A stretch of DNA of 44,903 bases from Candidatus Daviesbacteria bacterium (GCA_030648645.1 JAUSHL010000023.1:1-44903), one strand, 5' to 3'; shown: positions 21,298 to 35,563, counted from the first letter of the stretch. Notes: generated from the sequence alone by a model not told the origin. Translations and numbers: made by a program.

Positions 21298-21332
21298 TTA
21301 ATTTTAAATTTTTAATTTTAAATTTTCAATTA
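21298..21332. repeat. Degenerate heptamer array, TTAATTT / TAAATTT alternating
   Basis: Period-7 units TTAATTT, TAAATTT, TTAATTT, TAAATTT, TCAATTA between the small membrane ORF and the tyrS stop. Confidence 0.6.
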
Positions 21333-22433
21333 CTTCTTTGTTAATCTTTCAATTTCTTCCAAAGCTTTCTTTCTTTTGGGATCTTCAAAGTATTTACGGG
21401 CTGGTTCTAATTTCTGAATCAACCATTCAGCTACGGCATTTTTTAAATCCATTGGATGTAATTTTTTTTCAGCATAATCTTTTTCTAAATCTTCATAACT
21501 GGTGTAAGTTATATCTCCTCCAAATTTTTCATCTCTTTTAATTTCTAATTTAGAATCTTTTTCATAAAATATTAAATATTTAGCCCAGTCTAAAATTGGA
21601 TTATATTTTATTTCTCCCTCCGGACAAAAAGCATTACCAATTTTTCTTTTAATTTCTTCTGGTGAGTCAGTCACAAAAATAGCACTATCAGGTTTTGATT
21701 TGCTCATTTTCATTGCTGTTACTATATCTTCCCTATTTTCTTCCGGAATTGGCCAAAGCGGAGGTTTTAAAAGTCCTTGTAATAAATGATGATGAATGGC
21801 AATAGGTTTTAGGTATCCAACTTCTTTGGCACAATCTCTGGCTACCACATGAACATTCCTCTGATCAGTACCTGCATGGGCAATATTTACTCCTAAAGTG
21901 AAAATATCAGCAGTCTGCATAGCTGGGTAAAACAGACTGGCTGTATCTGATGATTGACCTGCAACTCTTCCCATAATGTTGGTTGAACGCATCATGCGGG
22001 AAATAGTTGTGGCTTTTGCTACTTTAATTACATTTGCCCAATATTCATTATTTAATTTTTTATAAAGTTCACTACCTAAAACAAACTCAATTTTTTTAGG
22101 ATCTGCACCGACACACAAAGCTGCAGCTTTTAATCCTTCTTCAAAATATGATCTTGCCATTTTAGAAGCGGTTTCTAAAGTTCCGTCTAATTTTTTATTT
22201 AACCATGTATGCCAATCTGCTAAAAGAATAGTTGTTTCTATTCCGGCATCCTGTAGATTTTTGATTTTTAACATAGTGGCAAGTCCGGTTCCTAAGTGAA
22301 CTTTTCCGGAAATTTCAAACCCAATATAATGTTTCATTGGTTTTCCAGACTTAATTAGATCCTTTAATTCATCAGCAGTTAAGACTTCCTCTAAATTTCT
22401 GGTAATTAAATTAAACTTTTCCTCATTTGTCAT
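21330..22433 (-). CDS. tyrS: Tyrosyl-tRNA synthetase, archaeal/eukaryotic type
   Basis: 367 aa. Class I synthetase. YIGFEISGKVHLGTG holds the HIGH-type motif, ILLADWHTWLNKK follows, TASLFYPAMQTADIFTLGVNIAHAGTDQRNVH shapes the tyrosine pocket, and MKMSKSKPDSAI is KMSKS. The end, FGGDITYTSYEDLE...KLHPMDLKNAVAEWLIQKLEPARK, is the archaeal C-terminal domain; bacterial TyrRS has an S4-like domain instead, which is absent. Start at 22433 because TATAAT ends 6 nt upstream. The window's own tRNA-Tyr has the matching archaeal-type features. Confidence 0.95.
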   Translation of the reverse strand: MTNEEKFNLITRNLEEVLTADELKDLIKSGKPMKHYIGFEISGKVHLGTGLATMLKIKNLQDAGIETTILLADWHTWLNKKLDGTLETASKMARSYFEEGLKAAALCVGADPKKIEFVLGSELYKKLNNEYWANVIKVAKATTISRMMRSTNIMGRVAGQSSDTASLFYPAMQTADIFTLGVNIAHAGTDQRNVHVVARDCAKEVGYLKPIAIHHHLLQGLLKPPLWPIPEENREDIVTAMKMSKSKPDSAIFVTDSPEEIKRKIGNAFCPEGEIKYNPILDWAKYLIFYEKDSKLEIKRDEKFGGDITYTSYEDLEKDYAEKKLHPMDLKNAVAEWLIQKLEPARKYFEDPKRKKALEEIERLTKK

Positions 22434-22439
22434 ATAACT

Positions 22440-22445
22440 ATTATA
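22440..22445 (-). promoter_or_regulatory. -10 box of tyrS
   Basis: Perfect TATAAT ending 6 nt before the tyrS ATG at 22433. No clear -35 box. Divergent from the ABC exporter gene. Confidence 0.55.
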
Positions 22446-22498
22446 CCTAAAGTACAAGCTAAAAAACAGACTTCTTTTATGCTACGATGGAAGTTAAC

Positions 22499-24319
22499 AT
22501 GGCAGAAGAAATGGAAAAGAAAAAAGTAAATCAGATCAAGGATAGTATTTGGGTATCTTATAGATTGCTTAAATTAGTCTGGGGTGTGGATAAAAGATTA
22601 TTTTTAGGAACATTGGTTTCAACTATCATTCCGGCAATAATTCCTTTTATTAATATTTATATCTATAAATTAGTTATTGATTTGGTGGTAAAATCAATCA
22701 CTTCAAATCAAACTCCCGATTATTCATATTTATATTTTTTAATTGCCTTAAGATTAGTAACCTACTTTGTTCAGGAAGCAGCTTTTAGAACTCAAGGGTT
22801 TGTAGAAAGATTATTTTGGACAAAAGTCCCGATTACTTTAAATGAAATGGTGTATAAAAAAACCTCCGGTTTAGATATCCAATATTTTGAGGACAGTCAT
22901 TTTAAGGATTTACTGGAAAAAGTCAGAGATGCTGCCTGGAGGCCACAAGAGTTGGTTATGCATTTATTTATGGGACTGCAAAGCTTTATTCAGGTAATAA
23001 TTGCGACAATTGCAATTGCAGAGTTGAATTTATTTTTGATGGTTTTAGTGCTTTCAGTTTCAATTCCGGAATTTATTATTCAAACCAGATATTCCAAATT
23101 ATCCTATGGAATTTGGTCCAGTAATTCTCCTTACCGAAAAAGATTTTGGTATTTGGCAGGATTGTTGCAACATTATCACACTATGAAAGAAGTTAAGATT
23201 TTTAGATTGGCTAAAAATTTTATGGCTGAAATAAGAGGCATTCAGGAAAAATATTACAAAGAAAATACCAAATTAGCCAAAGAAAATTATTTTTTAAATT
23301 TAATTTTTAATGTTCTTTCAACTTTAGTTTTTGTGGGAGTAGAAGTTTATGTAATTTTGGAAGCTTTGGCCAGAAGGATTACTGTTGGAGACATCAGTTT
23401 TTATACAGGTGTCGTAATGAATTTTCAAAGCGGTCTAGGTGGGCTTTTCCGCAATATGACCGGAATTTTTGATAATAGTCTTTATGTTAAAAGTATCTTT
23501 GAAGTTTTGGATGCGGAAAATGTGATCAAGGAAATAGAAAATCCTGTTAAGATAAATCATAATGAGACTCCTAAAATAGAATTTGTAAATGTTGATTTTG
23601 CTTATCCCGGATCCAAAAAGAAAATTTTAAATAATTTTAATTTAACCATAAATCCCGGAGAAAAAATTGCTTTGGTGGGAGAAAATGGAGCCGGAAAAAC
23701 TACTTTAATTAAATTACTCACCAGATTTTATGATGTAAGTTCGGGAGATATTTTAATTAATGGGGTAAGCATTAAAAATCTGGAATTAGAAAGTTGGTAT
23801 AAATGTTTGGGAGTTTTGTTTCAGGATTTTAATAAATATGAACACACAGTTACTGAAAATATTGGATTTGGTAAAGATTATGAAGAAATAAATATTGAAG
23901 AGATCATAGATGCTGCAACTTCAGCCGGAGCTCATGCCATGATTGAAAAATTGGATAGAGGATACGAACAAATGTTGGGGAAAACTTTTGAAGGAGGTTT
24001 GGAATTATCAGGTGGTCAATGGCAAAAGATTGCTTTGTCCAGGGCATTTTTAAGAAATGCTCCGGTTTTGGTTTTAGATGAACCAACTGCCTCTATAGAT
24101 GCTAAAGCAGAATCAGAAATTTTCAACAGAGTAGAGAAATTATCCAAAGATAAAACAGTAATTATTATTTCTCATAGATTTTCCACAGTGAGAAATGCTG
24201 ATAAAATATATGTGATTGATAAAGGAAGAATTATTGAATCTGGGGATCATAAGGAGTTGATGCAATTAAATGGTCAATATGCCACCCTCTTTAAACTCCA
24301 AGCCAAAGGATATCAATGA
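22499..24319 (+). CDS. ABC exporter, fused permease and ATPase
   Basis: 606 aa half-transporter. Six-helix membrane domain in residues about 25-325, then an ATPase domain: Walker A GENGAGKTTLIKLL near residue 402, Q-loop LFQDFNKYE, signature LSGGQWQKIALSRAF near 502, Walker B VLVLDEPTASID, H-loop SHRFSTV. Resembles MsbA/LmrA-type exporters of lipid, peptide or drug; the substrate cannot be told. GGAAG precedes the ATG at 22499 by 5 nt, which favours it over the ATG 12 nt upstream. The 3' end overlaps the convergent gene by 7 nt. Confidence 0.9.
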   Translation: MAEEMEKKKVNQIKDSIWVSYRLLKLVWGVDKRLFLGTLVSTIIPAIIPFINIYIYKLVIDLVVKSITSNQTPDYSYLYFLIALRLVTYFVQEAAFRTQGFVERLFWTKVPITLNEMVYKKTSGLDIQYFEDSHFKDLLEKVRDAAWRPQELVMHLFMGLQSFIQVIIATIAIAELNLFLMVLVLSVSIPEFIIQTRYSKLSYGIWSSNSPYRKRFWYLAGLLQHYHTMKEVKIFRLAKNFMAEIRGIQEKYYKENTKLAKENYFLNLIFNVLSTLVFVGVEVYVILEALARRITVGDISFYTGVVMNFQSGLGGLFRNMTGIFDNSLYVKSIFEVLDAENVIKEIENPVKINHNETPKIEFVNVDFAYPGSKKKILNNFNLTINPGEKIALVGENGAGKTTLIKLLTRFYDVSSGDILINGVSIKNLELESWYKCLGVLFQDFNKYEHTVTENIGFGKDYEEINIEEIIDAATSAGAHAMIEKLDRGYEQMLGKTFEGGLELSGGQWQKIALSRAFLRNAPVLVLDEPTASIDAKAESEIFNRVEKLSKDKTVIIISHRFSTVRNADKIYVIDKGRIIESGDHKELMQLNGQYATLFKLQAKGYQ

Positions 24320-25017
24320 TTGTGGAATATTATATCCATAATATTTGCAGAATCCCTTATACCCGTTAGTAACACGGTTGCATATATATGTTCAGTTGGA
24401 ATATTAGGAATGGCAAGCTGATTTTCTTTAAAATAATCTTCATGAATATATTGAATTATATCTTTTGGGTTTCTTAGGTCAACAAAATAAAGAGCTCTTC
24501 TTCTGTTCCTGTCCCATATAGGTAATGCACTTAAAGGGGTTAGATAAGATAAAGCATGGTCTAAATTTGCTGTAACCCAAATTTCATTTAATCTATCTGG
24601 ATAGTGAAAACTTCCTGTAAAAACAAAATCTTCTCTTTTACTTTTTGCAAGCAATTTTTTGAGTTGTTCACAAAGCTCAGGTGGTATAACATAGTCTTTA
24701 AAATTGGCAATAGAATATTTTTGGTATTTCCTTATGTAATCAATGATTAATTGAATTTTTTTTGCTTCTTCGCTTGTTTTTAAAGGTTGGCTTAAAAGCA
24801 TTTCTTTAACTTTTACTTCAGATATTGGATAACATAGTTTCCCATACTGTTCTGTAGGAATAAAACTTTTATAGTTGGGAAATTGCACAACTAGATATTC
24901 TCTGCTGTTCTTTGTTTCTATTCCTTGAAATGTGCCTATTAATTGTGATGTCCTTATCAGGTGTGAACCCGGTGTTAACTTTTCAAGAGTAATTTCTGGT
25001 AAACTTTCCTGTATCAT
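24313..25017 (-). CDS. Unrecognised soluble protein (234 aa)
   Basis: No family recognised. The N-terminal segment LTPGSHLIRTSQLIGTFQGIETKNSREYLVVQFPNYKSFI looks like a small beta-barrel; the middle is helical (EEAKKIQLIIDYIRKYQKY), and the C-terminal part contains HYPDRLNEIWVTANLDHAL and RRALYFVDLRNPKDIIQYI. No membrane segment or signal peptide. The ATG at 25017 is preferred to an in-frame start 13 codons earlier because TG-C-TACAAT lies 9 nt upstream of it. Confidence 0.65.
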   Translation of the reverse strand: MIQESLPEITLEKLTPGSHLIRTSQLIGTFQGIETKNSREYLVVQFPNYKSFIPTEQYGKLCYPISEVKVKEMLLSQPLKTSEEAKKIQLIIDYIRKYQKYSIANFKDYVIPPELCEQLKKLLAKSKREDFVFTGSFHYPDRLNEIWVTANLDHALSYLTPLSALPIWDRNRRRALYFVDLRNPKDIIQYIHEDYFKENQLAIPNIPTEHIYATVLLTGIRDSANIMDIIFHNH

Positions 25018-25026
25018 GCTTTTGGG

Positions 25027-25035
25027 ATTGTAGCA
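25027..25035 (-). promoter_or_regulatory. Extended -10 promoter of the 234-aa gene
   Basis: TG-C-TACAAT ends 9 nt before the ATG, the same distance as at pheS and at the first pilin gene. Confidence 0.45.
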
Positions 25036-25080
25036 TAAATTACAAAATCTTCCCATATCTGAAAGAGAATGCTGGAAAAA

Positions 25081-26424
25081 CTATTTCATTGTTTGAGTAT
25101 ATTTCTCATTCCAATCTAAGATACTATCAACTGATTTTTGATTCCATCTCTGCAAAGCTGTTGCCTGATGTTGAGCTATCTTACCGCCCTTTTCTCCTCC
25201 CTGAATAAATCCATATCTGTATTCATCTTTTTTCGTTTCCTCGTTTTTCCATTTGTGTCCAATTGATAGCATTAAGCAGGCAGCAGTCACAGCTTCTAAT
25301 CCATAAGGATTAAATCTAAATCCAATATGTTTCTGGAAAAAATTATTATATTCAATTGCAGTGTCTGGGCGGAATTGAACACTGCCAATATCTCCCGTGT
25401 TTGAACCTGGCATCATTTTATAATTATATTTAACAGAATTAATTGACAGAAACTGACTAAGGTCAATAAATTTATCTTTTGCATCTGAATAGTCGAATGC
25501 GGGTAATGGTCCAATGTTTGCCAAGGCATAAATTTTACCATTTTTGGTAACTTTACTTTCATTCCAGGCAATGCCAATTAAAACTCCAATTGGCAATATA
25601 ATATCTTCCAAAGAGATTAATTTTGGATCAACCAAATCTTCTAAATCAGGTCTAAATTCTTTTATGAAGTTTACTTTGCCTAAATTATTCATTTTCTTTT
25701 GTAGAATATTTTTAGCTTCTAAATATGAGTCTTTGCAAATAGCAATCCATTCTGGGTGAAAGTTATTATTTTTGGCAAACTCTCTTTCTTGCTTTTCTAA
25801 TTTTTTAAGACCAAAAGAACCGCTTTCTCTCATTTTCCATCTTTCTTCTAAGAGTTGAATTCGATTATCAGTATTGGTAATAAACCAAAAAGCTTGATCA
25901 AGGTATTGTAAATTATATGAATTAATAACTTCACTGGTATAGTCAGTTTCAGCCTTTTTACGCTCCGGTGATCCAGGAATGGAATTTAAAATAATATTTG
26001 CTTTTTCTATCTGAAAAATCTTTGCAGAGGATTCTGTATTTTGTTCTGTAGTTTGTTTTTTTGTTGATGTAGTTGCTAATGAGTTTTGAATATTTTTATT
26101 TTGAATATCTACTGCTGTTTTATCTGCATTAAATTTTGCCAAAATACCTAATCCCACAACTCCAAAACCTGTAGATAAACCTCTTAATAAGAAATTTCTT
26201 CTTCCGATTGTTTTATAAAGTGCATTTCTTTCACTAGGTAGCAAATCAGGATTCTGTGATTGAATTTCCTTATAAGTTTTATTATCAGGTAAAAAACGTT
26301 TAAAAAAATCCCGACGAGTGTGTGTCTGTGGTTTTTGCTTTTCTTGAATTGGTACATTTTCAGTGTCAGAAACAGGCATAATTGGCTTATCTTTGATGAT
26401 AAATGAGATTGGCATAGTAAGCAA
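25081..26424 (-). CDS. Secreted lysozyme/transglycosylase-like protein with twin-arginine motif
   Basis: 447 aa. A cytoplasmic N-terminal part precedes IGRRNFLLRGLSTGFGVVGLGILA near residues 74-98, a twin-arginine-type signal or anchor placed unusually far in; TRRDFFKRF is a second RR pair. The exterior part has a charged linker and then a lysozyme-like domain: LPIGVLIGIAWNESKV (Glu as likely catalytic acid, near residue 297), SNTGDIGSVQFRPDTA, and GLEAVTAACLMLSIGHKW. Two methionines lie downstream of the TTG start at 26424 (26415 and 26379). Probably acts on peptidoglycan. It is divergent from the transposase gene and partner-like to the gene at 27311. Confidence 0.65.
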   Translation of the reverse strand: MLTMPISFIIKDKPIMPVSDTENVPIQEKQKPQTHTRRDFFKRFLPDNKTYKEIQSQNPDLLPSERNALYKTIGRRNFLLRGLSTGFGVVGLGILAKFNADKTAVDIQNKNIQNSLATTSTKKQTTEQNTESSAKIFQIEKANIILNSIPGSPERKKAETDYTSEVINSYNLQYLDQAFWFITNTDNRIQLLEERWKMRESGSFGLKKLEKQEREFAKNNNFHPEWIAICKDSYLEAKNILQKKMNNLGKVNFIKEFRPDLEDLVDPKLISLEDIILPIGVLIGIAWNESKVTKNGKIYALANIGPLPAFDYSDAKDKFIDLSQFLSINSVKYNYKMMPGSNTGDIGSVQFRPDTAIEYNNFFQKHIGFRFNPYGLEAVTAACLMLSIGHKWKNEETKKDEYRYGFIQGGEKGGKIAQHQATALQRWNQKSVDSILDWNEKYTQTMK

Positions 26425-26440
26425 TAAGGAGATTATGTTC

Positions 26441-26471
26441 GAGTTCCCACACTCGGTGTGGGAATCTAAGC
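26441..26471. repeat. REP-like palindrome, copy upstream of the transposase
   Basis: GAGTTCCCACACTCGGTGTGGGAA then TCTAAGC: an inverted repeat TTCCCACAC/GTGTGGGAA. Three further copies at 26950, 27176 and 29051. Confidence 0.9.
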
Positions 26472-26502
26472 AAAGTTAATTACATTATGCCATAATAAAA
26501 GT

Positions 26503-27162
26503 GTGAGAGATTTATCCTTTTGTACTGATTGCTATTATCATATTTACAATCGTGGTGTCGAGAAAAGAAAGATTTTTGAGGATAGATTTGACTATTGGCG
26601 ATTCCTAGAAACATTAGGTTTTTATCGTAAATCCCCCATTCCGGTAAAGCTCTCAGATTTTAGAAGAGGTAAGCTTGGAATTAGGAAAATTGAAGCTCAG
26701 ACTGAAATAGTCAAAATATATTGTTTCTGTTTAATGCCTAATCATTTTCATTTGATCGTTCAACAAGTTGCAGAAAATGGCATATCCATATTTATGAGGA
26801 AAATTTCTGATAGTTATACCAAATATTTTAATACAAAACATGAACGAGTTGGTTCTTTATTTCAGGGTCCATTTAAGGCTAAATTAATTGAGACTGATGA
26901 ATATTTGCTTCAACTTTCTAAATATATTCACAGAAATCCAAAAGAGCTTGAGTTCCCACACTCGGTGTGGGAAGCTAAGCAATATCCGTATTCCTCATAC
27001 CAATATTATCTTTCGGGGGAAAAACATTCTTTCTGTGATACAGAGTTTATTCTTTCTTATTTTTCCAAGACAAATCCAAATTCAGATTATCAAAGTTTTG
27101 TAGAGGAATTTGGATTTGAAGACCCATCTTTTTATAGCGTATTTATAGATCCAGAAGATTGA
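26503..27162 (+). mobile_element. REP-associated tyrosine transposase (RAYT, Y1 HUH)
   Basis: 219 aa, GTG start. HUH motif in LMPNHFHLIVQQ (His81 and His83), the usual start YHIYNRGVEKRKIFEDRFDYWRFL, and a catalytic Tyr candidate in ISDSYTKYFN (Tyr105). VGSLFQGPFKAKLIETDEYLLQLSKYIHRNP is typical of the family. RAYTs nick and move single-stranded REP palindromes. Cognate-looking palindromes flank the gene on both sides, and a third copy lies inside it (residues about 150-160, ELEFPHSVWEAK) just before the conserved YPYSSY. CATAAT ends 6 nt before the GTG. Whether it is active cannot be told, but its motifs are intact. Confidence 0.92.
26950..26980. repeat. REP-like palindrome inside the transposase gene
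   Basis: Identical over the 24-bp core to the flanking copies, in frame without a stop, between the conserved RNP and YPYSSY motifs. Confidence 0.9.
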
Positions 27163-27175
27163 AATGAAATAATTC

Positions 27176-27206
27176 GAGTTCCCACACTCGGTGTGGGAAG
27201 CTAAGC
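27176..27206. repeat. REP-like palindrome downstream of the transposase
   Basis: GAGTTCCCACACTCGGTGTGGGAA then GCTAAGC, same orientation as the two preceding copies. Confidence 0.9.
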
Positions 27207-27275
27207 GCAATTTAAAGTTAAAACGAGACATTGATTAATATAAACTTATGGGTGTATTCAGTAAGTATCCCATAG

Positions 27276-27304
27276 TTGCATTTTAGATCGCTTTGTTATA
27301 GAAT
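27276..27304 (+). promoter_or_regulatory. Promoter of the 375-aa transglycosylase
   Basis: TTGCAT, 17-nt spacer, TAGAAT, then 6 nt to the ATG at 27311. A leaderless mRNA is predicted. Confidence 0.6.
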
Positions 27305-27310
27305 AGCCTT

Positions 27311-28438
27311 ATGAATAATGAAGTTAGAATAAGTAGGCGCGATCTTTTAAGATGGGGTATTGCTGGTGCTGTTGTGGGTTTTTTAGGTAGGTCTTATGTT
27401 GAAGATCAATTTAATCGGTTAACGTCGAGTTATAATGATTTGTTATTAAATATTCCCGATAGTGTTAATAACACAGATCAAGAAAATACAAATTCTTTTT
27501 ATGAGCCTTTTGCTGGAAAAGAAGCTAATGAAATTGCTAAAGAAATGGGAGTTACAGCTGGTACCTTTTTCGTCGTTCCAAGTGAAATAATGCCTAAATT
27601 ACAAGGTTTTTGGGGCAATGAATTATTCCCGATTTATACACCAGCAGTTTTAGAGTGGAAGAATTTAATCTACAAATATGCAGAATTAAATAATATCCCC
27701 CCAAATATTTTAGCAATGGTGATGACTATTGAATCTGCTGGACGGCAAGATGCGGTGTCTGGTGCTGGTGCACAAAGTTTAATGCAAGTTATGCCTAATA
27801 ATTTTCCAAGTAATTTAAGAACTGTAAAAAGTATGCAAGATCCTGATACTAATATGAAATACGGAACGGAAGTTTTTAAATATTTCCTAAATTATGCAAG
27901 GATTTTCTATTCTAATTCTTTACTTCCGGAAAATGATCCAAGAATTATTGCAAGAGCTTTAATGGGCTATAATGGAGGTAGTGCTGCAGTAGAAGGTTCA
28001 GTCGTGCCAACGGTTACTGGTGGTACTTTAGCTCCAGACGAGTCTGCTTTTTATGGTGATCATATTATTAGGTTTGTTTTAACGTCTGAAATAGCTTCAA
28101 GATTAAGAAATAAGGGGTTTGCGGATTCGGAAATAATTAAGCAAATTCAATCGGAGGAAGTTAATGGACGGGCCTATGTATTAAAAAAATCTGGATATAA
28201 TAATTATAGTGATTATGCTAATGTAATTAAGGAGTTATCCAAACCTGTTTTAGAGAATCATTCGTTAATACAATTTATCAACACATATAAAAATGATAAA
28301 AATTTGCATTTTGATTATCCTACTTCCCCAGCTTTGATGATATGGATGCGACTTGGTGGTGCTTTTTTAGTTTCTCAAGAGAAATTATATACTCAAAATA
28401 TAGATAATTGGTATAAAATGAATTCCCAAAAACAGTAA
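27311..28438 (+). CDS. Tat-type secreted SLT lytic transglycosylase
   Basis: 375 aa. N terminus RISRRDLLRWGIAGAVVGFLG is a good twin-arginine signal (SRRDLLR) with a hydrophobic core. The catalytic domain (about residues 110-240) has the SLT pattern: NIPPNILAMVMTIESAGRQDAVSGAGAQSLMQVMP with the catalytic Glu near residue 140, then DPDTNMKYGTEVFKYFL and ALMGYNGG. Such enzymes cleave the glycan between MurNAc and GlcNAc. The C-terminal 140 residues are of unknown type. Tat components are not in the window. Confidence 0.88.
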   Translation: MNNEVRISRRDLLRWGIAGAVVGFLGRSYVEDQFNRLTSSYNDLLLNIPDSVNNTDQENTNSFYEPFAGKEANEIAKEMGVTAGTFFVVPSEIMPKLQGFWGNELFPIYTPAVLEWKNLIYKYAELNNIPPNILAMVMTIESAGRQDAVSGAGAQSLMQVMPNNFPSNLRTVKSMQDPDTNMKYGTEVFKYFLNYARIFYSNSLLPENDPRIIARALMGYNGGSAAVEGSVVPTVTGGTLAPDESAFYGDHIIRFVLTSEIASRLRNKGFADSEIIKQIQSEEVNGRAYVLKKSGYNNYSDYANVIKELSKPVLENHSLIQFINTYKNDKNLHFDYPTSPALMIWMRLGGAFLVSQEKLYTQNIDNWYKMNSQKQ

Positions 28439-28752
28439 TTGCGTTTTTAAATTCTTAAAACATTCTCAAAAACAAAAAGAAAGCCATTGTTCGAGTTCTC
28501 GAACTCAATAAATAAAATCCACCTGGGGGGTGGATTAGATAGGACTCCTAGGGATACCAATGTATATACAGATTCTACAATACAATATTCCTGTTTGGAA
28601 TAAGTACAAGATATCTCATGGGTATATTAAGTACAGGATTTGGCTTCATTTAAGAGGAGATAAAAGTATCTTTGGAATTTATGTGTAGGATTATTTACAG
28701 ATTTAGATTGAAGGTATAAAAGTATCAGAATTGAAATGCCTTATTACAAACT
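28439..28752. other. Intergenic stretch with two palindromes, no gene seen
   Basis: Holds GAGTTC-TC-GAACTC near 28494 and the CCACCTGGGGGGTGG element at 28517-28556. The rest is AT-rich with short direct repeats (AAGTACA twice, ATAAAAGTATC twice). No coding frame is supported. Confidence 0.6.
28517..28556. repeat. CCACCTGGGGGGTGG element, intergenic copy
   Basis: Palindrome AATCCACC/GGTGGATT followed by TAG, GG and CCTAGGGAT. A second copy with the same layout lies inside gatD at 42291-42330. Confidence 0.85.
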
Positions 28753-29013
28753 TTAATTATTTAATTTTAATTCTTCTTCAATGATTTCCTTTACAGTCAT
28801 CATTCGATTAAAAGTTTGAGAATATAAAGCAATTGCAATATCGATTTTAGAAAATACATGCATATTACCTTTATGGGAACCCGCTTTTACATCAGGTTTA
28901 AGAAGATCTCTTCCTATCATTCCGTTTATTATTGTTATTGTTGTAAGATTATTAAAAACTCGTGTTAAAGTCGCACCACTCCATCTGGGGTCCTTTCCAC
29001 TTAGCTTCCCCAC
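28753..29013 (-). CDS. Small protein with MerR-like helix-turn-helix features
   Basis: 86 aa, GTG start. IGRDLLKPDVKAGSHKGNMHVFSKIDIAIALYSQTFNRMMTVKEIIEEEL resembles the wing and second helix of a MerR-type DNA-binding domain. The GTG and the first codons (GKLS) are part of a degenerate REP-like sequence (GTGGGGAAGCTAAG), and a stop lies two codons upstream, so the original N terminus may have been replaced. Functional status uncertain. Confidence 0.45.
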   Translation of the reverse strand: MGKLSGKDPRWSGATLTRVFNNLTTITIINGMIGRDLLKPDVKAGSHKGNMHVFSKIDIAIALYSQTFNRMMTVKEIIEEELKLNN

Positions 29014-29081
29014 ATGTCAAGTGGGAGCACACATGTTGAGTTCCTACATTGAGTTCCCACACCGAGTGTGGGAAGCTAATG
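29003..29081. repeat. REP-like palindromes, inverted degenerate copy and intact copy
   Basis: GAGTTCCCACACCGAGTGTGGGAAGC at 29051-29076 is close to the transposase-linked palindromes, with CTCGG changed to CCGAG in the loop. AGCTTCCCCACATG...AAGTGGGAG at 29003-29028 is a degenerate copy in the opposite orientation. Confidence 0.75.
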
Positions 29082-29109
29082 TTTGAGCCAAGGGGTAGCA
29101 AATTACTGT

Positions 29110-29382
29110 TTATTTTGATAATGCATCCAAACTTTCTCTAATTATTAATTTTAGCCCCTTTTTACCTGAAGTGGTTTTTAGGTATTTTTCTCTTCTTAGA
29201 GCATCAGATTTGGATAGAAAATATTCACAAAAGATTAAATCGAATGGCCTTCTTGGTGCCGTTGCAGCAGATTCACCATTAAAATGAGAAGTTAATCTTT
29301 GTTTAAGGTTAGAAGTATAGCCAATGTAAAATTTATTATCCTTTTTACTTAGAAGCACATAAATACAAAACTGGAGTTTCAT
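29110..29382 (-). CDS. GIY-YIG endonuclease-like protein
   Basis: 90 aa. CIYVLLSKKDNKFYIGYTSNLKQRLTSHFNG carries the paired YV...YIG motif and the Arg of the family, then RRPFDLIFCEYFLSKSDALRREKYLK with the conserved Glu. Size matches the UPF0213/YhbQ group of stand-alone GIY-YIG proteins. An in-frame ATG seven codons upstream is possible. Found beside the REP palindromes; cellular role unknown. Confidence 0.85.
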   Translation of the reverse strand: MKLQFCIYVLLSKKDNKFYIGYTSNLKQRLTSHFNGESAATAPRRPFDLIFCEYFLSKSDALRREKYLKTTSGKKGLKLIIRESLDALSK

Positions 29383-29408
29383 TTTTAAGTCTGAAAGAAA
29401 CATTAAGA

Positions 29409-29469
29409 GCTGTGAAGTAGATCAAAGATCACTTCACAGCCATGAAGCGAACTTTGTTCTGCTTCATGG
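29409..29469. repeat. Two adjacent hairpins 3' of tRNA-Tyr
   Basis: Stem 1 GCTGTGAAGT/ACTTCACAGC with loop AGATCAAAGATC; stem 2 CATGAAGC/GCTTCATG with loop GAACTTTGTTCT. The loops are complementary to each other at 10 of 12 positions. Stem 2 includes part of the encoded CCA end of the tRNA. Confidence 0.8.
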
Positions 29470-29542
29470 TCCTGAGGGTAGGAGTTGAACCCACCTAGTA
29501 CAGATTTACAGTCTGTTGCATAAACCGCTCTGCCACCTCAGG
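29467..29542 (-). tRNA. tRNA-Tyr (GUA), short variable loop, C1:G72
   Basis: Acceptor CCTGAGG pairs perfectly with CCTCAGG, giving C1:G72. Anticodon arm ACAGA-CTGTAAA-TCTGT has anticodon GTA. The variable region is five bases (ACTAG), T arm GTGGG-TTCAACT-CCTAC. A73 and CCA are encoded. Normal bacterial tRNA-Tyr is class II with a long variable arm and G1:C72; C1:G72 and a short loop are archaeal/eukaryotic features and agree with the archaeal-type TyrRS at 21330. Confidence 0.95.
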
Positions 29543-29597: not shown

Positions 29598-32162
29598 ATG
29601 GTATTTAAACGTTTGAGAAGAGTTTCTTCTAACCAATCTTTTGGTAGAGCAAAATTTTTATCCAAATTTTCTAATGTTTTAATAACCTTAATCTTGGGTG
29701 GGATTTTTTTGGTTATTGCAATTGTTTTAATTTTTATTACCCAAGTTCCCTCTCCTGAACAATTATCCAGTAGAGATGTAGCTACAGCTACTAAAATTTA
29801 CGACCGGAATGGCGAGCTTTTATATGATATTTATAAAAATGAAAATAGAACTCCCGTTAAGTTAACCGAAATTCCCGAAGTAGTAAAACAGGCAACTATT
29901 TCTATTGAAGATAAGGATTTTTATAAGCATCAGGGTTTTGCTCCTTTGGGGATTATAAGATCAATTTTTGAGTTGGTTGTTTATCGTCAGATTGAGGGAG
30001 GTGGATCTACCTTAACCCAACAACTGGTAAAAAATGCTTTACTTTCTCCGGAAAGAACTGCTATCAGGAAATTAAAAGAATTTATTTTGGCAATTCAGGT
30101 AGAACGTGCTTACACCAAAGATCAAATTCTGGAAATGTATTTGAATGAAATTCCGTATGGTGGTACAGCTTATGGGATCGAAGCGGCAGCTAATTTATAT
30201 TTTGGTAAGCACGCAAAAGATTTAGATTTGGCAGAGGCTTCACTACTTGCAGGACTTCCACAAAGACCATCTGTTTACTCTCCTTATGGAACTCATCCGG
30301 AACTGGCAAAGGAGCGACAAGCAGAGGTTTTAAGAAGGATGGTAGAAGATGGTTATATAATCCGCGATCAGGCTGATCAGGCTAAAAAAGAAGAATTATC
30401 TTACCGGACTGCTCAAAACGAACTTGGTTTTAAAGCTCCTCATTTTGTTTTATATGTCAAACAAAAATTGATTGAGCAATATGGAGATAAGATGGTGGAA
30501 CAAGGTGGATTAAAAGTGACCACTACTTTAGACAATAAATTGCAGGAAGAAACCCAAAAAATTGTTAAAGATGAAGTAGATAAATTGGGAAGTTATAAAG
30601 TTGGTAATGGTGCGGCTATAATATTAGATCCTAAAACCGGTCAGATTTTAACAATGGTGGGAAGCAAAGATTATTTTGCCAAATCATTACCCGAAGGATG
30701 TATTGAAGGTAAGACTTGTACTTTTGAACCGAATGTTAATGCATCACTCTCTCTTCGACAGCCGGGTTCTGCTACTAAGCCGATGACTTACTCTGCAGCA
30801 TTGCAAAAAGGTTATACTGCTTCATCTGTTTTAATGGATGTAAAAACTGATTTTCCTGGTGGCGATCAGCCCACTTATACTCCGGTAAATTATGACGGAC
30901 AATGGCATGGTCCGGTGCAGGTAAGATATGCTTTGGGAAATTCTTTTAATATTCCGGCTGTCAAAACCTTAGCATTAGTGGGAGTCAAAAATGTCATGGA
31001 TTTAGGATACAGAATGGGGCTTTCAACTTGGGAGCCAACTCAAGAAAATATCGATAATGCCGGACTTTCTTTAACTTTGGGAGGAAGAGAAGTAAGGCTT
31101 TTAGATTTAACCTCAGCTTTTGGAGTATTAGCAAACAAAGGAATAAAACAAGAACCTGTTTCCATTTTAAAAGTTGAAGATAGTAAAGGAAAAACTTTAT
31201 ATGAATATAAAGAATCTGATGGTGTAAACATTTTGGATGAAGGAATAGCTTTTATTATTTCTAATATTTTAGCAGATAACGGTGCAAGATCAACCGCTTT
31301 TGGATCAAACTCTATTTTAAATATTCCCGGAAAAACTGTGTCTGTAAAAACAGGAACAACTGATGAGAAAAGAGATAATTGGACAATTGGCTATACTCCT
31401 TCATTCGTCGTTGGAGTGTGGGTGGGAAATAATAATAATGAAAAAATGAATCCGGCAATTGCTTCAGGAGTGACAGGTGCATCCCCAATTTGGCAAAAAA
31501 TTATGAAAATTGCTTTAAAAGAAAAAAGTGATGAAAAGATTGATCAGCCGGGCAATGTTTCTTATACAGATGTCGATGGAGTAATGGGAGGTAAACCCAA
31601 GGATGGTTCTCCTGTAAGAAAAGAATATTATGTTAAAGGTACAGAGCCAAGTAGCGTCTCTTCTGCTTATCAAAATCAAAAGGTTTGTAAAACAAATATT
31701 CACCGGCTTGCCAATGATGGTGAAGATTCTGATCAAAAAGATGTAATTGTTTTGCAGGAAAATGATCCAACCGGAGCGAATAAATGGCAAACAGGAATTG
31801 ATACTTGGGTTTTAACTGCTCCTGATCAAAGATTTGTTGGAGCAACTAAAGGTTGTTCTGGAGTTCCCGGTTTTACCGATGCCGGAAATCAGGGGGGTGT
31901 AATTTCTATTGTTAATGTCGGAAATGGAGCAAATGTACCCCGGGTGTTTGATGTTTTGGCAAAAACTAACTCTCCTTTTGGAGTGAAAAAAGTTACTTGG
32001 AGTATTGATGGAAGTCAAAAAAATGTCCAAACTTCAGAGCCTTATGCTCAACATGTTGAGTTTCCGGTAGGTGATAAGGGATCACATACAATATCTGTAA
32101 CTTTGGAAGATAACAATGGTGGATCTTTTACTACTTCAATTGGGGTAACTGCATTACTGTAA
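29598..32162 (+). CDS. Class A penicillin-binding protein (PBP1A-type)
   Basis: 854 aa bifunctional glycosyltransferase/transpeptidase. Membrane anchor at about residues 26-50. GT51 domain: SIEDKDFYKHQGF (catalytic Glu104), GGSTLTQQLVKN, EMYLNEIPYGGTAYGIEAAA. Transpeptidase: SATK nucleophile at Ser391, SFN at 449-451, KTGT from Lys584. The C-terminal 150 residues contain an Ig/Big-like domain (VPRVFDVLAKTNSPFGVKKVTWSIDG...HTISVTLEDNNGG), probably for wall contact. Polymerises and cross-links peptidoglycan at the outer face of the membrane. Followed by an unrelated small gene; monocistronic as far as seen. Confidence 0.96.
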   Translation: MVFKRLRRVSSNQSFGRAKFLSKFSNVLITLILGGIFLVIAIVLIFITQVPSPEQLSSRDVATATKIYDRNGELLYDIYKNENRTPVKLTEIPEVVKQATISIEDKDFYKHQGFAPLGIIRSIFELVVYRQIEGGGSTLTQQLVKNALLSPERTAIRKLKEFILAIQVERAYTKDQILEMYLNEIPYGGTAYGIEAAANLYFGKHAKDLDLAEASLLAGLPQRPSVYSPYGTHPELAKERQAEVLRRMVEDGYIIRDQADQAKKEELSYRTAQNELGFKAPHFVLYVKQKLIEQYGDKMVEQGGLKVTTTLDNKLQEETQKIVKDEVDKLGSYKVGNGAAIILDPKTGQILTMVGSKDYFAKSLPEGCIEGKTCTFEPNVNASLSLRQPGSATKPMTYSAALQKGYTASSVLMDVKTDFPGGDQPTYTPVNYDGQWHGPVQVRYALGNSFNIPAVKTLALVGVKNVMDLGYRMGLSTWEPTQENIDNAGLSLTLGGREVRLLDLTSAFGVLANKGIKQEPVSILKVEDSKGKTLYEYKESDGVNILDEGIAFIISNILADNGARSTAFGSNSILNIPGKTVSVKTGTTDEKRDNWTIGYTPSFVVGVWVGNNNNEKMNPAIASGVTGASPIWQKIMKIALKEKSDEKIDQPGNVSYTDVDGVMGGKPKDGSPVRKEYYVKGTEPSSVSSAYQNQKVCKTNIHRLANDGEDSDQKDVIVLQENDPTGANKWQTGIDTWVLTAPDQRFVGATKGCSGVPGFTDAGNQGGVISIVNVGNGANVPRVFDVLAKTNSPFGVKKVTWSIDGSQKNVQTSEPYAQHVEFPVGDKGSHTISVTLEDNNGGSFTTSIGVTALL

Positions 32163-32660: not shown

Positions 32661-34373
32661 CTATCCAATTTTTATCTCTAAAATAGCTACTCTTTTTTCT
32701 AATCCAAATTTATCTGTTATTCTTAGATGCACTTCCCCTATTTTGCCCACTGGTTTATTACCATCGGTTACATAAAAATAACGCATCGGATGAAATCTCC
32801 CATCGCTTTCTCCAATTGGATCACCGAGTTTGAATATTTCCATGGTTTTTAGAATTTGGTAAAGTTCCTGAGTAGGATTATCAGAGCCATTCAAAAGTGC
32901 AATGCAAAGTTTATATTCTTCCTGAATTTCTCCTGATTTAGTAATTTGATAAGTTTTGCCAATTTCAAAAATGGCAATGTCCTTGTACCCTTGTTTGTAA
33001 TTTTTAGCAACAACTTCCACTAAATTTGGCCAAAGATGAGTTCTCATGTATTCTGTTTCAGAAGACATTGGATTGAGAATTTTTATTAAATTCGAAATTC
33101 GAAATTCGAAATTCGAAATTATTGAAGTTGAATAAAATGAATAAGTTTGCACTTCACTTAAACCAATTTTTACCAAATTTTCTTTTAAATCAAAAATTTT
33201 CTCAAACAATGATTGATCAATTTTTTCAGGAAGTGTTCCTGCTAATTCTTTGGAGGGTAATTTTTCATAGCCATACATTCTGGTAATTTCTTCAATAACA
33301 TCAGCTTCAATACTAATATCTAATCTATAATATGGAGGTTTTACTTCCCAGGCACGTAGGGCGTCCCCTCTTCGAGCCTGAGCAATGGCCTCAGAGCCGA
33401 AGGCCTGCGTGCGTATGATTTTGAAGTTTAGTTTCTGGAGATAATTTTCAACATCTTCTTCTTTCATTTCTATGCCAATTAAAGAATCCATTTGTGATTT
33501 TCTTAAAGTGATAGTTTTTTCTGTATCTTCCAAATCACCAACAATGGAAATAGCTGTTAATTTACCACCCAAACTTGCATACATTTTTATTGCAGAATCC
33601 AAGGCTTGCAAACATCTTTTTTTAGTTAAACCATGCTGAAATCTTTTAGAAGCTTCTGATTGCAATCCTAATCTAGTGACGGTTTTACGAATAGTAATTG
33701 GGTCAAAAATTGCTGCTTCAAATAGAATATCTACTGTTTTTTCTGAAATTTCACTATTTTTCCCACCCATTACACCAGCAATTCCTAAAACTTTTTTAGG
33801 ATCTGTAATTACCAAATCACTTGTCACGAGTTTTCTTGTTTTTTCATCCAGAGTTGTTAGCTCTTCTCCATCTTTTGCATGACGGGCAATTAAGGTTTCA
33901 TCTGCTACAATTTTTGCATCAAAGGCATGCATTGGTTGACCATATTCCAACATTACTAAATTGGTAACATCAGTAATGCAATCAATTGATCTCACACCAG
34001 AGGCTTCTAATTTTTCAACCCATTCTTTGGAAGATTTTTCAACTTTTAGTCCTTCAATTTTAGCAATACAATAAACAGGAATATCTTTTTTATCTTCAAC
34101 CTCAATTATGGTTTTTGGCAAGATTGAATCTTCCCAAATAAATTTATTAGCTTCTTTAAAAGTTACAGAAGAATCTGTAATCGCAGCAATTTCTAGAGCC
34201 ACACCACGCATGGATAAAAGGTCAGCTCTGTTATAACCTTTCATATCCAATTCAATAAAATCATCTGTAATTTCTTTAGTTCCAATAGTGCGAAGAGGCA
34301 ATAGGCGTTCTACCTCTGTAAAAGACACTTTTAAATCGACTAATTCTTTTAACCAATTTTTGCTTACTTTCAT
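32661..34373 (-). CDS. pheT: Phenylalanyl-tRNA synthetase beta chain, reduced
   Basis: 570 aa against about 800 in typical bacteria. It starts directly with MKVSKNWLKELVDL and then the B3/B4 editing-like region (GVRSIDCITDVTNLVMLEYGQPMHAFDA); the EMAP tRNA-binding insertion is missing. B5 and the catalytic-like core are present (IEADVIEEITRMYGYEKLPS, SFYSTS, LNPMSSETEYMRTHLWPNL, IFEIGKTY). It ends at GEVHLRITDKFGLEKRVAILEIKIG, so the C-terminal FDX-ACB domain is also absent. Two repeat-derived insertions: residues about 320-341 (palindromic element) and 420-429 (heptamer array, NFEFRISN). Partner of pheS, separated from it by a palindromic repeat. Confidence 0.93.
   Translation of the reverse strand: MKVSKNWLKELVDLKVSFTEVERLLPLRTIGTKEITDDFIELDMKGYNRADLLSMRGVALEIAAITDSSVTFKEANKFIWEDSILPKTIIEVEDKKDIPVYCIAKIEGLKVEKSSKEWVEKLEASGVRSIDCITDVTNLVMLEYGQPMHAFDAKIVADETLIARHAKDGEELTTLDEKTRKLVTSDLVITDPKKVLGIAGVMGGKNSEISEKTVDILFEAAIFDPITIRKTVTRLGLQSEASKRFQHGLTKKRCLQALDSAIKMYASLGGKLTAISIVGDLEDTEKTITLRKSQMDSLIGIEMKEEDVENYLQKLNFKIIRTQAFGSEAIAQARRGDALRAWEVKPPYYRLDISIEADVIEEITRMYGYEKLPSKELAGTLPEKIDQSLFEKIFDLKENLVKIGLSEVQTYSFYSTSIISNFEFRISNLIKILNPMSSETEYMRTHLWPNLVEVVAKNYKQGYKDIAIFEIGKTYQITKSGEIQEEYKLCIALLNGSDNPTQELYQILKTMEIFKLGDPIGESDGRFHPMRYFYVTDGNKPVGKIGEVHLRITDKFGLEKRVAILEIKIG
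33088..33115. repeat. Heptanucleotide tandem array (AAATTCG)4 inside pheT
   Basis: Four perfect units plus AAATT. Encodes SNFEFRISNL on the minus strand. A change by one unit would shift the pheT frame. Confidence 0.95.
33350..33415. repeat. Palindromic element inside pheT sharing 17 bp with thrS
   Basis: Ends are roughly inverted (GGCACGTAGG / CCTGCGTGC), length about 66 bp, in frame, encoding QAFGSEAIAQARRGDALRAW. GCACGTAGGGCGTCCCC at 33352-33368 recurs in thrS at 38515-38531, encoding GDALRA in both. Confidence 0.85.
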
Positions 34374-34504: not shown

Positions 34505-35563
34505 CTAAAATTTCTCCAAAAATCTTAAATCTCCACTCAAAAATAATCTAATATCACTGATTCCATGTTTTAACATCATCATTCTTCCAACTCCGGGACC
34601 CCAGGCAATTCCAGAATATATATTAGGATCAACATTGCCGTTTTTGAGCACTTGAGGATGTATCATGCCAGCTCCTCCAATTTCCAGCCAACCTGTTCCA
34701 CTGCAGACTTTACATTCCTTTCCATCTTGTAAATGCGCCTCTCCATTACAAAACATGCACATTGCATCAATTCCAACGCCTGGTTCTACAAATGGGTAAT
34801 ATTTTGGTCTCAATCTGGCTTTGATATTTTTTCCCACGATTGCTTTTAAGAAATATTCAGAAAGATATAGTAAGTTTGCCATACTCAAACCCTTATCCAC
34901 ATAAATTAGTTCAAATTGTTCAAAAGTGTGTTCGTGTCTGGCATCGATGTTTTCGTATCGGAAGCATCTTCCCAAACTCATCATCCGAAAAGGAGGTTTA
35001 TATTTTTCCATGATTCTAATCTGAGAATTTGAGGTATGGGTTCGCAAAAGCAGTTTTTGTTTACTGGATTCTTGTTTTTGATCTATGTAAATTGTGTCCC
35101 AGAGATCACGTGCTGGATGCTCTTGGGGGATATTCAAAGCTTCAAAATTATAAAAATCAGAATCAATTTGTGGTGCATCAAATTGTTGAAAGCCAATTTT
35201 TTTAAATAATTCTACAGTTTCCTGAATGAATTGAGTTGTAGGATGAAGATGTCCTTGTCTTTTTTTGATTTCTACTGCAGAAAGATCAGTTTTTTCATCA
35301 ACTAAATTTTTATATTTTTCTTCCCTAACTTCTTCTCTTCTTTTTTCTATAGCTTCCTCTAAATTCTGCTTTGTAGAATTAAATAAGGGTCCAATTTTTT
35401 GCAAGTTCTCTTTTTCTAATTTAGGAAATTCTTTTGGAGCTCCCGTTATTTCTCCATTTTTACCAAATAAAGCCAAAAAAATCTCATCAAGTTCTTTTAA
35501 ACTTTCAGCTTGCTCAATCTTTTTTAAATATTGTTTTTGGATAGTTTTTAATTTTTCTTCCAT
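34505..35563 (-). CDS. pheS: Phenylalanyl-tRNA synthetase alpha chain
   Basis: 352 aa. N-terminal coiled coil, then class II motifs: GHLHPTTQFIQETVELFKKIGF (motif 1 region), RTHTSNSQIRIMEKYKPPFRMMSLGRCFRYENIDARHEHTFEQFE (motif 2), and GIAWGPGVGRMMMLKHGISDIRLFLSGDLRF (motif 3). It contains a zinc-like CMFCNGEAHLQDGKECKVCSGTGW insertion with two CxxC pairs, unusual compared with E. coli PheS but known from other bacteria. Extended -10 TG-A-TAAAAT ends 9 nt before the ATG. Confidence 0.95.
   Translation of the reverse strand: MEEKLKTIQKQYLKKIEQAESLKELDEIFLALFGKNGEITGAPKEFPKLEKENLQKIGPLFNSTKQNLEEAIEKRREEVREEKYKNLVDEKTDLSAVEIKKRQGHLHPTTQFIQETVELFKKIGFQQFDAPQIDSDFYNFEALNIPQEHPARDLWDTIYIDQKQESSKQKLLLRTHTSNSQIRIMEKYKPPFRMMSLGRCFRYENIDARHEHTFEQFELIYVDKGLSMANLLYLSEYFLKAIVGKNIKARLRPKYYPFVEPGVGIDAMCMFCNGEAHLQDGKECKVCSGTGWLEIGGAGMIHPQVLKNGNVDPNIYSGIAWGPGVGRMMMLKHGISDIRLFLSGDLRFLEKF

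Follow-up and report, generated by a model that had tools for sequence, protein, structure and literature searches.

How might a bacterium come to read tyrosine by an archaeal rule? The 44,903-nucleotide stretch of Candidatus Daviesbacteria DNA analyzed here (JAUSHL010000023.1:1-44903 of GCA_030648645.1, our contig C18; hereafter the window) carries on its minus strand a tyrosyl-tRNA synthetase (TyrRS) of archaeal/eukaryal type and a tRNA-Tyr gene that begins with a C1:G72 pair and has no long variable arm (V-arm). Next to the tRNA gene lies a gene for a penicillin-binding protein (PBP), with pheT and pheS beyond it (Table 1). The host, a tiny groundwater bacterium of Daviesbacteria type (Microgenomates), is represented by a draft genome (G000) of 962 kb in 45 contigs, 95% complete. 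Handles beginning with G, C and L denote our genomes, contigs and loci.

Table 1. The tyrosine pair and its conserved neighbors, in window coordinates
Feature	Coordinates	Strand	Basis or remark
Archaeal/eukaryal-type TyrRS, 366 amino acids	21330..22430	-	NF006330, Pfam, best solved relative 2cyc, tree
KLHPMDLKNAVAE block in TyrRS	21426..21464	-	alignment to 1j1u and column check
tRNA-Tyr(GUA), CCA encoded, no V-arm	29467..29542	-	ARAGORN, Rfam tRNA, parsed positions
Variable loop ACTAG, 5 nucleotides, positions 44-48	29495..29499	-	G48 at 29495 faces G15 at 29528
C1 of the C1:G72 identity pair	29542	-	sequence; partners G72 at 29471, A73 at 29470
PBP gene, conserved tRNA-Tyr neighbor	29598..32162	+	tblastn synteny
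pheT	32661-34373	-	conserved neighbor; used for locus tree
pheS	34505-35563	-	conserved neighbor; used for locus tree

The sole tyrosyl-tRNA synthetase

The TyrRS open reading frame (ORF) spans 21330-22457 on the minus strand, with its likely start at the ATG at 22430. Its product scores 443 bits against the archaeal TyrRS model NF006330 (cut-off 220), a model that all but 4 of 14 named control genomes fail. The only Pfam domain it contains is PF00579, the catalytic/anticodon domain; neither S4 nor SYY_C was found in it by Pfam. Among bacterial-type controls, SYY_C lies above its cut-off in the enzymes of G164 and G057, as does S4 in that of G057. The best solved relatives are archaeal TyrRS chains, foremost 2cyc, which we take to be the P. 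horikoshii enzyme, while the closest named relatives are from Candidatus Daviesbacteria. The KLHPMDLKNAVAE block aligns with residues 281-293, at the anticodon-reading end, of 1j1u, which we take to be M. jannaschii TyrRS; D286, within these residues, is presumably a reader of G34. An earlier note, made from the sequence alone, had described just such an enzyme, archaeal in type, with an archaeal block and without the S4-like bacterial tail, and all three points are borne out.

The tree that the earlier note called for groups the window enzyme with 2cyc and 7fg6 (support 98); it took in no bacterial-type sequence, such sequences scoring far below the NF006330 cut-off. In the enzyme tree, the window's family makes up a single clade (36 sequences, support 98); of the two separate archaeal-type clades in the class as a whole, it falls in that close to 2cyc. 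Two genes of the genome carry PF00579, the window TyrRS and one bacterial-type tryptophanyl-tRNA synthetase (TrpRS), and a PF00579 search of its contigs found no second TyrRS.

The tRNA-Tyr gene and its descent

The anticodon of the tRNA gene is GTA (ARAGORN), and the Rfam tRNA covariance model, another check suggested in the earlier note, gives it 56.7 bits against a gathering score of 29. It parses as CCTGAGG-TG-GCA-GAGCGGTTTA-TGC-A-ACAGA-CTGTAAA-TCTGT-ACTAG-GTGGG-TTCAACT-CCTAC-CCTCAGG-A-CCA, with no mismatch in any of the four stems (7/7, 3/3, 5/5 and 5/5), and both the C1:G72 pair and the five-base variable loop that had been noticed at first sight are confirmed. C1:G72, A73 and the GUA anticodon together are the archaeal/eukaryal identity set for tyrosine (PMC9976931); of the long variable arm and G1:C72 that mark class II bacterial tRNA-Tyr, the gene has neither. 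All 38 tRNA matches in the genome could be typed and one carries GTA, so that among them there is no second tRNA-Tyr, including any class II G1:C72 form. With a single tRNA-Tyr, and with this TyrRS and a TrpRS as the PF00579 genes, the assembly shows neither of the two things that the earlier note had said would speak against its proposal, a placement of the enzyme inside the bacterial type or a second, class II tRNA-Tyr with G1:C72. Its remark on CCA holds in part: tRNA-Tyr alone of the window's three tRNA genes encodes CCA (Val and Leu do not), but this is not special, because other tRNA genes of the same genome, such as those for Arg, Asn, Gln, Ile, Pro and Ser, encode it too.

Is this tRNA archaeal by descent as well as by identity? 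The earlier note had offered co-transfer of enzyme and tRNA as one explanation, and C1:G72 with a short variable loop does look archaeal at first sight. The core of the molecule does not: it has a class-II-type D-arm (3 bp, G13.A22), a G15.G48 pair and no intron. The Pacearchaeota tRNA-Tyr, a single intron-containing gene that represents the archaeal side of this comparison, has C13:G22 and G15:C48, and matches the window tRNA at 42 of 60 aligned bases. A class I D-arm with a 13:22 pair and an R15:Y48 pair are both absent from the window tRNA, which, with this one archaeal reference, is closest to bacterial V-arm tRNA-Tyr. A locus tree built from PBP, PheT and PheS joins the window genome and G001 as sisters (support 98), and the tRNA-Tyr of G001 combines a V-arm with C1:G72. 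Over 47 columns (stems plus anticodon loop), the window tRNA agrees with that of G001 at 44 (94%), which is nearer than any V-arm-less tRNA, and over the full length 62 of 74 positions are identical. With its stems nearest to those of G001 and the Pacearchaeota tRNA different, the window tRNA is therefore bacterial by descent and archaeal only in identity; its D-arm, its lack of an intron and a locus in common with the V-arm tRNA-Tyr of relatives likewise mark it as the resident bacterial gene. Core features, locus and similarity, with the one Pacearchaeota gene as archaeal reference, lead us to reject the idea that enzyme and tRNA arrived as an archaeal pair, which we consider very unlikely. 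Co-evolution, the other half of the earlier note's alternative, fares better, and was published for bacteria of the candidate phyla radiation (CPR) in 2017 (PMC5370408).

Two further sources of such a gene can be weighed with the same data. A case for remoulding of a different tRNA within the genome might be made from the genome's tRNA-Ser(GGA), identical at 54 of 68 aligned bases; however, the V-arm tRNA-Tyr of G001 matches better both overall and in the stems, and the entire anticodon arm is that of tRNA-Tyr, so that remoulding is not supported and seems to us even less probable than co-transfer. An archaeal contig misplaced in a bacterial bin is conceivable for a draft in 45 contigs. The tRNA-Tyr of nearly every family member, however, has this PBP gene as its neighbor, in most cases with pheT and pheS after it. 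Dozens of independent relatives show the same arrangement, a number of them in single-contig genomes or on contigs that are hundreds of kilobases long. Because its neighbors match the family synteny, the contig is no stray piece of archaeal DNA, and we reject contamination as having next to no probability.

Several features near the tRNA gene are recorded here in their own right. Two perfect hairpins lie directly downstream of it (29409-29440 and 29440-29469), the second of which (CCATGAAGC/GCTTCATGG) takes in the encoded CCA; an ORF for a GIY-YIG nuclease (29110-29403) follows them. A TTCCCACAC/GTGTGGGAA hairpin occurs four times in the window (26444-26464, 26946-26980, 27179-27199 and 29046-29082), with copies around and inside a likely REP-associated (repetitive extragenic palindromic) transposase ORF (26503-27162), an arrangement that is REP/RAYT-like.

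Tyrosine identity and the variable arm among relatives

How widespread are the enzyme and the flipped pair? Archaeal-type TyrRS is found in 33 of 34 genomes of the window's family, the exception being 84% complete, and C1:G72 is family-wide. Across the class, 79 of 281 genomes pass the archaeal-type cut-off. Among the matches listed, all of the archaeal-type genomes with a recovered tRNA-Tyr (~75 by our own count) have G72, and nearly all genomes with a bacterial-type TyrRS have C72.

V-arm state is far more patchy: among family members with a recovered tRNA-Tyr, 15 lack the arm and 20 have it, and the PBP-PheT-PheS neighborhood is common to both kinds (tblastn). The locus tree requires 7 changes of state, of which well-supported branches force at least 5, and the enzyme tree requires 11. 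Because C1:G72 is family-wide and loss of the arm is patchy, the 1:72 flip and the loss of the arm were not simultaneous. No TyrRS alignment columns were found that split species with a V-arm from those without.

Loss of the arm goes with a rebuilt tRNA core. G15:C48 is present in 37 of the 37 V-arm tRNA-Tyr examined, whereas positions 15 and 48 hold identical purines (A.A or G.G, covarying) in 33 of 34 distinct sequences that lack the arm. None of 20,000 shuffles, which ignore relatedness, gave as good a match, and on the tRNA tree there are at least four switches between A.A and G.G. Position 59 behaves similarly (C59 in 35/36 V-arm-less sequences vs. A59 in 37/37 with the arm), and the D-loop of V-arm-less tRNAs is shorter by one or two bases. 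In another family, f28 (e.g., L163, L167 and L176), most members have G8.G14 instead of the near-universal U8.A14. The window tRNA-Tyr, with G.G, has the only homopurine 15.48 pair among the tRNAs of its genome, the others having A:U, G:C, U:A, U:G or C:A; the odd pairs are U15:A48 (Pro, Gly), C15.A48 (Ala, Gly) and U15.G48 (Ala, Pro).

We consider it highly probable that these patterns record the full change of a bacterium's tyrosine identity. An ancestor of the family would have acquired a TyrRS gene of archaeal type and shed its bacterial one, after which the resident bacterial tRNA-Tyr, already equipped with A73 and GUA, would have gone from G1:C72 to C1:G72. Because the swap of enzymes would have removed the bacterial C-terminal domain that reads the V-arm, the arm would have been left without a reader, and in the window lineage it would then have been deleted, with the tRNA core repacking from G15:C48 to G15.G48. 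Under the identity rules in PMC9976931 and PMC5370408, the archaeal-type enzyme is predicted to read C1:G72, A73 and the anticodon, to ignore the V-arm, and to leave ordinary bacterial tRNA-Tyr uncharged; by the same reasoning, the window TyrRS probably charges the window tRNA-Tyr. We infer that enzyme gain came first, the 1:72 flip next and arm loss last, and that the arm was lost in place instead of a V-arm-less form being imported.

Some observations weigh against this history. G164, G076 and G057 (L233, L235 and L228) combine a bacterial-type TyrRS with a C1:G72 V-arm tRNA-Tyr, so that C1:G72 does not go with the archaeal enzyme in every case. These mixed pairs may be a halfway stage of the switch or a reversion from it; either the 1:72 flip may have come first or a bacterial enzyme may have returned later. 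The minimum-energy fold of the window tRNA-Tyr differs from the cloverleaf, and energy folding was therefore not used as evidence. A tRNA tree that includes loop columns unites the V-arm-less tRNAs (support 89); on stem columns alone (47, of low resolution), a single V-arm-less origin is not rejected (approximately unbiased test, P = 0.37).

These last results bear on a different account, in which V-arm-less tRNA-Tyr had one origin in CPR bacteria and was passed on by gene exchange, or two copies once present together underwent differential loss, the window tRNA not having been shortened in its own lineage. Shortened D-loops, homopurine 15.48 and C59 are common to two families and G135; the repeated changes of V-arm state on the locus tree, the two tRNA-Tyr genes of some genomes (G204, G236 and G286), and a 4.7-kb contig with TyrRS and a V-arm-less tRNA in G135, a genome that has a bacterial TyrRS as well, would also fit. 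Yet the stem columns place the window tRNA nearest to its V-arm sister and yield one origin in none of the bootstrap trees, the gene keeps the same locus beside PBP, and the common loop features may follow necessarily from loss of the arm. We give the single-origin account a real chance, short of even. It is likewise conceivable, if on balance doubtful, that class II-to-class I conversion after the enzyme swap needed a homopurine 15.48 pair, and that the converted tRNA also passed from one CPR family to another, ready to serve archaeal-type TyrRS as an orthogonal partner. To return to a switch completed in place, its order is testable within the family, because V-arm and V-arm-less forms sit at one locus.

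Individual genomes add variety. G204 has both C1:G72 and G1:C72 tRNA-Tyr, the two genes lying ~1.6 kb apart on a contig that also carries an archaeal-type TyrRS (G204:C19, L345), and G281 has a G1:C72 V-arm tRNA-Tyr within an otherwise V-arm-less family. The G135 contig (G135:C27, L346, 4674 bp), whose V-arm-less tRNA has C1:G72 and whose TyrRS is archaeal in type, may hold a mobile pair or stem from an error in binning. The TyrRS match of G029:C34 (L053) runs through one in-frame TGA.

Comparison with known systems

Mukai, Reynolds, Crnkovic and Soll (2017, Life, PMC5370408) reported archaeal/eukaryal-type TyrRS with C1:G72 tRNA-Tyr in CPR bacteria (Parcubacteria, Microgenomates, Dojkabacteria and Katanobacteria), naming a Daviesbacteria TyrRS among them. 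They noted C1:G72 forms with and without the V-arm, both present in one Roizmanbacteria genome, regarded many CPR tRNA-Tyr as derived from bacterial tRNA-Tyr because the V-arm is kept, and proposed transfer from DPANN archaea. The swap of enzyme and identity is thus already published, and the window genome, a CPR genome, has the same enzyme type and C1:G72 tRNA-Tyr. It differs from those systems in being a new genome. We found no mention of 15.48 in the results and discussion of that paper, and nothing closer in later literature on CPR archaeal-type tyrosine pairs. The homopurine 15.48 pair of V-arm-less tRNAs, the mapping of V-arm state on the locus tree and the demonstration of a shared locus are new here, and the rebuilding of the tRNA core in CPR tRNA-Tyr appears not to have been described before.

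Tryptophan systems of the same paper have a counterpart in the window's genome. At G000:C35:2722-5309 (L339:223-2810), a second tRNA-Trp(CCA) with A73 and G1.U72 precedes a 456-amino acid ORF, which has no tryptophan residue and no Pfam or NCBIfam match, and then the only trpS, of bacterial type; the other tRNA-Trp has G73. This arrangement resembles the tRNA-Trp(A73)-ORF1-TrpRS-A operon of Mukai et al. (PMC5370408), but without TrpRS-A. In G141 and G281 (L249:1270-2433 and L248), a TrpRS-like protein of ~390 amino acids adjoins another trpS; its closest NCBIfam models are PRK12285, below their cut-offs, and it scores 202 bits against TIGR00233.

Overall, these findings suggest that no domain of life has a fixed claim on a given tRNA identity, and that a resident tRNA can be adapted to complete a swap, with no need to import one. 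The predicted natural orthogonal tyrosine pairs would already be working in a bacterial cell, which could make them useful in genetic-code expansion. With the archaeal pairs (1j1u, 2cyc) the window shares the enzyme family, the HPMDLK anticodon-reading block, C1:G72, A73 and a short variable loop, but its tRNA core is bacterial in descent (G13.A22, G15.G48, A37, no intron). Human mitochondrial tRNA-Tyr also lacks the V-arm (PMC5370408); there, however, TyrRS keeps its S4-like domain and does not discriminate 1:72, unlike the archaeal-type window enzyme. Escherichia coli tRNA-Cys has a G15-G48 Levitt pair that is a determinant of charging (PMC9976931). The atypical G15-G48 is common to both tRNAs, but here the amino acid is tyrosine, A.A and G.G alternate, and the pairs arise with loss of the V-arm.

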